From a bacterium TMED217 (GTDB lineage Bacteria > Fidelibacterota > Marinisomatia > Marinisomatales > UBA1611): a stretch of 48,757 nucleotides of DNA. The stretch is taken from assembly GCA_002169695.1 (NCBI GenBank), contig NHJO01000001.1, positions 1 to 48,757 of the forward strand, in the 5' to 3' direction. Below the pieces are notes generated by a model. The model was not told where the DNA came from. It saw only the letters and a program-made list of their open reading frames with translations, and did not search any database. Below, in pieces: positions 29,997 to 37,064 of the stretch. The position numbers were made by a program, and so were the translations under genes. The stretch's first letter is position 1. Each line of letters begins with the position of its first letter.

Positions 29997-30365
29997 TTAT
30001 TTTGTGTGCCAATAAGCTAGCCCAATAAATACGAACTGAAAAGGAAGTCTCCCCCAAGCTATTAAAGGGGTAGTATTCATTGCAGCACCATTGGTCTGTG
30101 CTAAATATATATTTGCAGGATAAACAGCAATTAATAGAATGATTAATGCCCATCCTGCATATAACCTCATACTAGGTATTAAAAGCATTAACCCTAAAAT
30201 TATCTCCAAAAAGCCACTGATATAAACAAGCTCTAATTTATAATGAAGGTAGGGTGGTACAATCTGTACGAACCAATATGGATCTGTGAAGTGACTTACC
30301 CCTACAGAAACATAAAAACAGCTCATCAATAGGATGCTAATTAATTTTATGTTGTATCGAATCAT
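29997..30365 (-). CDS. DoxX-like membrane protein
   Basis: 122 residues with four membrane helices. The pattern VSVGVSHFTDPYWFVQIVPP, then YISGFLEIILGLMLL and AVYPANIYLA is typical of DoxX/DoxD-like proteins in Bacteroidetes-type genomes. Its function is unknown. It converges on yidD with a 10-base gap. Confidence 0.82.
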   Translation of the reverse strand: MIRYNIKLISILLMSCFYVSVGVSHFTDPYWFVQIVPPYLHYKLELVYISGFLEIILGLMLLIPSMRLYAGWALIILLIAVYPANIYLAQTNGAAMNTTPLIAWGRLPFQFVFIGLAYWHTK

Positions 30366-31252: not shown

Positions 31253-31879
31253 TTATTTTAAATATAAAACTTTTTTTAACCCTTGTATTTTATTATCAAC
31301 TTCAAATCCAATCAGATATAGTCCACCTGATATAGGTCGGTTGAAGTCATCAACACCATTCCAAAAAACCAAATCTCTACCAACACCATAGTTTTTTCTG
31401 GTAATTGTTTTAACTCTTTTACCTAAAATATCAAAAATTATTATATTTTCTAGCTCCGACTGATTCAACATAAATGATATATTAATTTTATTATTAAATG
31501 GATTCGGGTAAACATCAAAGGATGGAGGCTCTCTAGGTGACTCACTCATAACAGAAACGGTAGAAGCTATCGCCCCTTCATTAATCCAATTATAAATTAT
31601 CATTTGCTGATCTTGTGGTAAAGGCTCAGCATTTTTTGGCATCCGACAACATATGGGTTCATTAGGAACAATAACAGAATCACGAAGGAGAACTCTATAA
31701 AGCAAACTACTATCAGCATTAAATGGAATTACTACCGGGCCATTATTACTATCACCTTCCATTAAATATTCATAAGAATCTAGCTCAAGAGCCCCAGATC
31801 CATTTACTGAAACATGACAACTTAGACAATGATTATAAAAAATAGGCTGAACCTGTGTCGCATAGTCAACCTGTGCCAT
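31253..31879 (-). CDS. Secreted mono-haem protein with type IX sorting domain; true start probably upstream
   Basis: From the first ATG it has 208 residues. C-L-S-C-H at residues 18-22 is a haem c site in a planctomycete-type cytochrome-like domain (VQPIFYNHCLSCH, then NWINEG near residue 105). Residues about 122-208 are a sorting domain: VYPNPFNNKINISF, then IFDILGKRVK and GGLYLIGFE. The ATG start leaves no signal peptide, yet the same frame upstream encodes a Lys followed by a hydrophobic run that ends MAQ, to an AUA codon at 31930-31928, with AAGGAAA five bases before it. I therefore think translation begins at that AUA. It lies directly after the Bax-inhibitor gene. Confidence 0.8.
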   Translation of the reverse strand: MAQVDYATQVQPIFYNHCLSCHVSVNGSGALELDSYEYLMEGDSNNGPVVIPFNADSSLLYRVLLRDSVIVPNEPICCRMPKNAEPLPQDQQMIIYNWINEGAIASTVSVMSESPREPPSFDVYPNPFNNKINISFMLNQSELENIIIFDILGKRVKTITRKNYGVGRDLVFWNGVDDFNRPISGGLYLIGFEVDNKIQGLKKVLYLK

Positions 31880-36056: not shown

Positions 36057-37064
36057 ATGAAAAAATTATATATCATAGCTATTCTATTTTTTTTCTTATT
36101 CAACGTACTCTATGGCCAATGAGCGCTATGAGGGAACCCCTCATTGCCAGGTGGCGATTCAGATAAAGGCTTAGGTGCTAAAAAAAATGAAATATATTTA
36201 TCACTAGAAAATAGTTATCAATACATCGACTGGTGGCATGAAGCAATCCCTGGGGAACCTTTTGATCATGAAGGTTCAATATTAACTACCGTATTACGGC
36301 CAGGCGCTATTTATGGTATTTCAAATAATATAAATCTATTTCTAACAACAACCTTCGGAGTAAGATCGATGGAATGGTTTGGAGACAATGTTTCTAAGCA
36401 CCATCGTGATGAGCATTCAGCAGAAGACTTTGATAATGCAATAGGTGGATTATTAGGTGACTCTAAAATTATTTTTAGGTATCTACTAAAAAATACAGGG
36501 GCTGGAGATGGATTCAGAATTATTATTGGGTCTGGATTAACAATTCCTTCAAAAAATACTCTTACAATAAATCCGTTCGCCAAGGCTGATGGCTTATTTG
36601 TTCCGCATCGGCATTTCAGTATGAGCGACGGAACCTATAATTATAATTCAGATTTTCAAATTTTTTATAAACGTTCAAAGAATCCAGTTTTTTTTGGCGG
36701 GAGTCTCTCAATTGCAAAACCCATTAATGAAAATAAATACTCATATTTACCTCCTACTAGCGCAAAAGCTGTATTAAATATTATTTATAAAACATTTGAT
36801 AAGATTGATGGAGCCATAGATCTTAGTCTGGGTTTGCAATCGTTATCTCTTGCTAGCTGGGATAATGAACCAGTTGCAAATTCTGATGCAATTATAATGA
36901 CCCCATCGTTCAGTTATTTATTTAACTTAAAAAAAGGCGCAATCAGTATTGGTATACAAAAGCCTTATTTTTTAGAAGGAGGATATGGTTGGAATGAGGA
37001 CAACATAAAAGAGACAACAAATGCATGGCAGCTCATTATAGCATACCGCTCTAAGATTAAATAA
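36057..37064 (+). CDS. Candidate selenoprotein: outer-membrane beta-barrel with two in-frame UGA codons (Sec-x-x-Sec)
   Basis: The full frame starts at ATG 36057: a Lys-Lys signal peptide of about 20 residues ending LYGQ, then UGA (36120-36122), Ala, Leu, UGA (36129-36131), and GNPSLPGGDSDKGLG. Read as 335 codons the rest is an outer-membrane barrel of the transporter/MetA-like kind: GGLLGDSKIIFRYLL, IIIGSGLTIPS, SLSIAKPIN, ending WQLIIAYRSKIK. A TTG at 36144 is the only start after the UGAs and would remove the signal peptide. U-x-x-U mimics C-x-x-C at the mature N-terminus. A GGU-loop hairpin at 36144-36157 follows at SECIS distance. UGA is a normal stop elsewhere in the window. A pseudogene with two nonsense mutations is the alternative. 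Confidence 0.72.
36129..36157 (+). promoter_or_regulatory. Putative bacterial SECIS element
   Basis: UGA 36129-36131 is followed by 18 bases and then GGU at 36150-36152. The GGU lies in an AGGU loop on a short stem, UUGCC (36144-36148) with GGCGA (36153-36157), one U-G wobble. Bacterial SECIS elements have a loop containing GGU or an early G, about 16-37 nt after the UGA; E. coli fdhF has 18 nt, as I recall its sequence. The first UGA lies 27 nt before the same GGU, still in range, so one element could serve both. Confidence 0.6.

Follow-up and report, generated by a model that had tools for sequence, protein, structure and literature searches.

An inventory of May 2026 comprises 119 prokaryotic selenoprotein families, in which the only outer-membrane barrels are of the GSU2204/MtrB type or a TonB receptor, both of them with a single selenocysteine (Sec, U) (PMC13188914). 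Within this inventory, the motif UxxU is confined to Prx-like, HMA-like and FmdB proteins (PMC13188914). For the hairpin that accompanies a Sec-encoding UGA, the bacterial SECIS (bSECIS) model asks for a G among the first two nucleotides of the loop, a stem of 4-16 bp and a loop placed 16-37 nt after the UGA (PMC13188914). With regard to barrel architecture, the structure of a COG4313 channel is available, in which the first 14 residues of the chain are folded into the barrel lumen (PMC4493636).

Here we analyse a gene from a 48,757-nt stretch of contig NHJO01000001.1 (hereafter the window) whose frame contains two UGA codons spaced as Sec-x-x-Sec. We consider it very likely that the gene belongs to an uncatalogued Neomarinimicrobiota selenoprotein family, which would form a channel of about 12 strands in the outer membrane with an N-terminal Sec-x-x-Sec; this judgement does not extend to the metal role discussed below. 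The preliminary description of the locus knew of no described outer-membrane barrel with Sec-x-x-Sec; the 119-family inventory has only single-Sec barrels (PMC13188914).

Table 1. Coordinates of the gene, its predicted elements and the tandem paralogue (positions refer to the window unless another locus is named)
Feature	Position	Strand	Remarks
Putative di-selenocysteine outer-membrane barrel gene	36057..37064	+	335 residues, TAA stop; same architecture in 83 genomes
Putative signal peptide MKKLYIIAILFFFLFNVLYG-Q	36057..36119	+	read from the sequence, without a dedicated cleavage-prediction program
First putative Sec-UGA, U22	36120..36122	+	TGA in almost every intact member, TGT (Cys) instead in L087
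Second putative Sec-UGA, U25	36129..36131	+	TGA in almost every intact member, TGT (Cys) instead in L086
SECIS-like hairpin AUUGCC / GGCGAU	36143..36158	+	apical loop AGGU (36149-36152); covariation, RNAalifold
Predicted beta-barrel domain, ~12 strands, COG4313/FapF-like	36189..37061	+	AlphaFold2, Foldseek, PF13557
Invariant His71 (D-H-x-G), predicted loop L1	36267..36269	+	24 members; low-confidence model placement
Invariant His115-His116 (HHRxE), predicted loop L2	36399..36404	+	24 members
Invariant His184-x-His186 (HxHF), predicted loop L3	36606..36614	+	24 members
Paralogue in tandem, immediately 3' of the UxxU gene, L090	3277-5323	-	
Paralogue in tandem, immediately 3' of the UxxU gene, L091	4119-6165	+	
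Paralogue in tandem, immediately 3' of the UxxU gene, L126	4523-6529	+	

Reading frame and conservation of the UGA pair

The frame outlined in the preliminary description was confirmed on the sequence. It runs on the plus strand from ATG 36057 to the TAA at 37062-37064, and its only internal stops are the two TGA codons of Table 1, which are separated by two codons. Downstream of the second TGA, 309 codons follow without a stop, for which the chance probability is ~1e-10 at the base composition of the window. TGA terminates 5 of the 36 long ORFs of the window and thus has to be regarded as a normal stop, as had been claimed, without any sign of genome-wide recoding. A further UGA precedes the ORF at 29997-30365; on examination it was left as a chance occurrence. 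The order of signal peptide and UxxU, likewise proposed beforehand, gains support from the dipeptide G-Q, which precedes the first U and is near invariant in the family, while the cleavage itself remains inferred from the residues alone. It probably adjoins Gln21, which would make the two Sec approximately residues 2 and 5 of the processed protein.

A homologue was found in 29 of 61 relatives; 28 of these hits carry exactly two in-frame TGAs and the remaining one is a C-terminal fragment. An alignment-based search of 245 Neomarinimicrobiota genomes gave a match in 83, nearly all matches that reach the N-terminus having two TGAs, and more than 70 related genomes of the phylum retain the UGA pair. 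In an alignment of 24 members with identities down to 22%, neither Sec column varies, nor do Q21, N27, P31, G33, H71, H115, H116, H184 and H186, and the UGA-bearing segment is among the most conserved of the protein. Intact N-termini read GQUxxU(x)N nearly throughout. The exceptions are locus L086 (genome G143) with UALC, encoded by TGA then TGT, and locus L087 (genome G108) with CSLU, encoded by TGT then TGA, and each Sec site has thus been replaced by Cys independently. Neither Trp nor any other residue besides Sec or Cys was seen at the two sites among the intact N-termini read, which agrees with what the preliminary description had proposed to look for in an alignment of homologues.

The tandem paralogue carries the motif CALU in L090 and L091 (QCALUNAPPPPVGGSE, Cys/Sec) and CAMC in L126 (QCAMCNSPPPPAGGSE, Cys/Cys). 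Its Cys/Sec form apparently represents a second uncatalogued, putative selenoprotein. Two observations concern the ends of the UxxU genes: in L090 and L091 the gene ends with WHRH followed by TGA TGA TGA, i.e. three stops in a row, and the C-termini in L030 and L034 are His-rich (EEHEHEHEDE, GHDHAH), consistent with metal binding.

As to the spread of the family, a genome-collection scan returned two loci, and no homologue was detected on plasmids and viral contigs at the sensitivity used. One of the two loci (L009, MPSY01000005.1) is filed under a Methylococcales metagenome-assembled genome. It was not counted as a case of transfer to another phylum, since the other genes of this contig match Neomarinimicrobiota (L104/G009) at 56-91%; the contig is probably misbinned Neomarinimicrobiota, and phyla beyond were not otherwise searched.

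Selenocysteine machinery and a SECIS-like hairpin

The preliminary description had named the sel genes as a test of its proposal. In the window's own genome, selA (E 9.7e-118) and selB (E 2.4e-102) lie adjacent to each other on one contig (C25). The genes selC (tRNA-Sec) and selD were not found in this genome, which is 64% complete, and are present in relatives, congeners among them: G005 has a tRNA-Sec with anticodon UCA, and both G002 and G005 encode a SelD with an in-frame TGA of its own (Sec form). Two lineages, f15 (24 genomes) and f23 (19 genomes), are without any strong SelB and without the UxxU gene. Against the selenoprotein reading, to judge from the table, about 17 UxxU-bearing metagenome-assembled genomes are without full-score SelB, most of them incomplete; they include G110 (95% complete) and G177 (100% complete, 8% contaminated). 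Missing contigs, a divergent SelB and contamination are candidate causes.

A SECIS predictor had likewise been recommended, and a covarying SECIS-like hairpin was indeed found downstream of the second UGA. RNAalifold, applied to 69 sequences, recovered the same 6-bp stem unguided. Pairing statistics were determined for this stem together with the loop-flanking pair, using 500 shuffles, which ignore relatedness, and slid controls. The covariation score amounts to 0.590, compared to 0.222 ± 0.017 for shuffled and at most 0.128 for slid versions; 94.7% of cells are paired (75.1 ± 1.3 shuffled) and 119 cells show double-sided changes (42.6 ± 6.1 shuffled), none of the 500 shuffles reaching any of the three values. 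Folded alone, the window sequence is not exceptional (z -1.25), the structure being visible in the alignment only, and Rfam gave only chance matches across the UGA region.

The bases flanking the loop (P3/V3) are exclusively G..C (53) or A..U (23) among 76 sequences. In members with LPVG they are synonymous third positions, namely CCG GTC (53) or CCA GTT (19); CCA GGT occurs in four sequences from the window's genus. No member shows a mixed state, although CCG and GTC each make up ~15% of usage elsewhere in these genes. Relatedness was accounted for by a tree built from the rest of the protein, with the hairpin region excluded. On this tree the P3/V3 state switches about six times, the two bases never changing singly. 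Agreement was found in 5 of 5 independent pairs (p 0.0625, which is the lowest value attainable with five). By counts, the L3-G3 wobble pair also covaries, but on the tree it offers too few independent pairs for significance.

The loop starts 17 nt past the second UGA and 26 nt past the first. The hairpin thereby meets the bSECIS criteria with its loop (GGUC, AGUU or AGGU), its 6-bp stem and both UGA distances within 16-37 nt. L086, where only the first UGA is left, retains the hairpin apart from one mismatch; the only UGA of L087 is the second. The Cys/Sec paralogue possesses a perfect GGUC hairpin of its own, whereas the Cys/Cys paralogue has GGCG instead and has lost the loop. We infer, as the simplest reading, that one SECIS hairpin serves both UGAs. 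The natural single-Sec and Sec-free variants, together with the compactness of the hairpin, provide a clean test of one bacterial SECIS for two UGAs.

Barrel fold and possible role in metal handling

An AlphaFold2 model calculated from three input sequences shows about 12 strands with a pTM of 0.57 and a pLDDT of 55.6; its first 35 residues are unresolved, and the U-x-x-U segment has a pLDDT below 50. Foldseek, run with this model against the PDB, ranks the COG4313 channel 4rl8 first (E 7.7e-8) and FapF next. The Pfam family PF13557 (Phenol_MetA_deg), which we take to be the equivalent of COG4313, matches 2 of the 24 members (best E 3.2e-6), the window protein not being among them. The window protein thus looks like a distant relative of the 12-stranded COG4313/Phenol_MetA channels, and the barrel assignment of the preliminary description can be upheld on the basis of a modest model and weak family hits. 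By analogy to COG4313, both Sec of the U-x-x-U segment may lie in the barrel lumen, which is an inference on a weak model. The same reservation applies to the five invariant histidines, which, provided that both chain ends are periplasmic, would occupy extracellular loops one to three.

A metal-handling gene accompanies the UxxU gene within ~2.6 kb on the same strand in 19 of 61 loci, a count that does not include a background rate. The neighbours include MerT or MerTP, MerP-type HMA proteins, ArsR regulators and, in some loci, DUF3179. Above the respective cut-offs, MerA (curated cut-off) was identified in L095, a CopZ-type metallochaperone in L115 and an SO_0444 Cu/Zn efflux transporter in L100 and L123, and a mer-operon-like gene set is present in L089, L101, L115, L120, L126 and L135. 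The window holds no metal-handling neighbours, and a search of the window's own genome for MerT was negative, as it also was for the control genomes. A separate observation in the window is a small protein (31253-31879, minus strand) that combines a cytochrome c domain of the planctomycete type (PSCyt1) with a Por secretion tail.

Because of the mer-like gene neighbourhoods, a metal role is favoured for some members of the family. In our estimation, the most likely role of the UxxU barrel is soft-metal binding or gating; it is inferred without function data, and we give it an even chance. The main rival accepts a di-Sec outer-membrane protein and assigns the pair to redox chemistry, i.e. a diselenide/diselenol acting on peroxides or disulfides in the envelope, instead of to metal ligation. 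Most known UxxC and CxxU Sec motifs are thought to be redox motifs (PMC13188914), UxxU is found in Prx-like proteins, and Cys substitutes for Sec at either site. This role nevertheless appears less likely, given the barrel fold without a thioredoxin fold or redox partner domain, the five invariant His, and the MerT, MerA, CopZ, HMA and Cu/Zn efflux genes beside the gene in the loci counted above.

Returning to soft-metal binding, the following sequence of steps can be proposed. SelB and tRNA-Sec would read both UGAs as Sec, for which the comparative evidence is strong, and a single SECIS hairpin past the second UGA would direct both insertions, its shared use being inferred. The N-terminal di-selenol segment would then reside in the barrel lumen or at its periplasmic mouth, as inferred from the COG4313 analogy. 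A soft metal or organometal (mercury, copper, silver or similar) may be captured by the outer His ligands, held by the di-selenol pair and passed on to periplasmic HMA, MerT or CopZ carriers, all of which is inferred. The more specific proposal that the barrel acts as outer-membrane entry or guard of mer-like systems, with His residues catching e.g. Hg(II), a luminal di-selenol passing it to MerT/HMA/CopZ, and one SECIS serving two UGAs, remains tentative, and we lean slightly against it as a whole. If true, it would amount to an outer-membrane component of mer-like systems that is built on selenium and contains a selenol-lined channel.

Remaining explanations and comparison with described families

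Two selenium-free explanations of the UGA codons seem very improbable to us, to the same degree. UGA is the leakiest stop codon, and the two codons could principally be read by ordinary tRNAs such as that for Trp, or by unspecific readthrough; this is difficult to reconcile with the replacement of UGA by Cys and never by Trp, with the SECIS-like covariation that is lost in the Cys/Cys paralogue, and with the presence of the Sec machinery. Alternatively, the frame could be decayed or regulatory, consisting of a 21-residue leader that ends at UGA and either a pseudogene or a barrel started at TTG 36144, where the downstream ORF in the window's ORF listing does begin. Such a TTG-started product would be without a signal peptide, and the phylum-wide retention of frame, signal peptide and both UGAs, in a segment among the most conserved of the protein, likewise speaks against decay. 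A CxxC protein with a sequencing or assembly error, which the preliminary description had named as a possible refutation and for which one base change from TGT or TGC to TGA would suffice, can practically be discounted, as the TGA pair reappears in more than 70 genomes that were assembled separately. Nor are the Cys variants L086 and L087 likely to be pure errors, since a random single-base error in TGA yields Cys in only 2 of 9 cases (~0.05 for two Cys cases by error alone); the paralogues are independent of this argument.

In conclusion, the putative di-selenocysteine reading of the gene is strongly supported, with Sec incorporation and function experimentally unproven and without any evidence at the protein level. 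The known selenoproteins seem to gain an unlisted family here, namely an outer-membrane channel with two Sec, and the marine phylum concerned is largely uncultured. Standard gene calling would begin at the TTG past the second UGA and thereby lose both the signal peptide and U-x-x-U. The metal-gene context suggests that selenium chemistry in the envelope may handle soft metals in the ocean.

Compared to catalogued families, the UxxU barrel family provisionally belongs to no described selenoprotein family that we found. The window protein matches nothing in Pfam, NCBIfam and PHROGs, including any reviewed selenoprotein family; in NCBIfam, P0001 has no match at E ≤ 10, and A1 has only weak non-selenoprotein matches. 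The PDB sequence search gave nothing relevant. Within the titles and abstracts of the open-access literature on Marinimicrobia/SAR406 selenoproteins, with subscription papers outside the search, the UxxU barrel does not occur. Its best fold match is with the COG4313/PF13557 channels (Pput2725, PDB 4rl8), and 2 of 24 members reach PF13557, whereas most of the family, the window protein included, misses it; neither UxxU nor the invariant His set is mentioned for Pput2725 in the text consulted. The GSU2204 MtrB/PioB-type barrel (NF041027) and the TonB receptor of the FCYXU type (NF049945) are likewise Sec-predicted outer-membrane barrels, but they have one Sec each and belong to other barrel families, and the UxxU barrel family produced no NCBIfam hit to either of them. 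Prx-like UxxU proteins share the two Sec in UxxU and differ in their thioredoxin-fold redox chemistry and unrelated sequence; selenoprotein L, too, is a thioredoxin-fold redox protein with two Sec in a UxxU motif, and its sequence is unrelated to that of the UxxU barrel. NF041115 (UxxU), the MerT selenoproteins (PF02411) and MerT_CopZ_Se (NF045683) have Sec at CxxC-like positions and handle mercury or copper, yet they are small HMA domains or inner-membrane proteins without a barrel, and thus resemble the neighbours of the gene rather than the gene itself.
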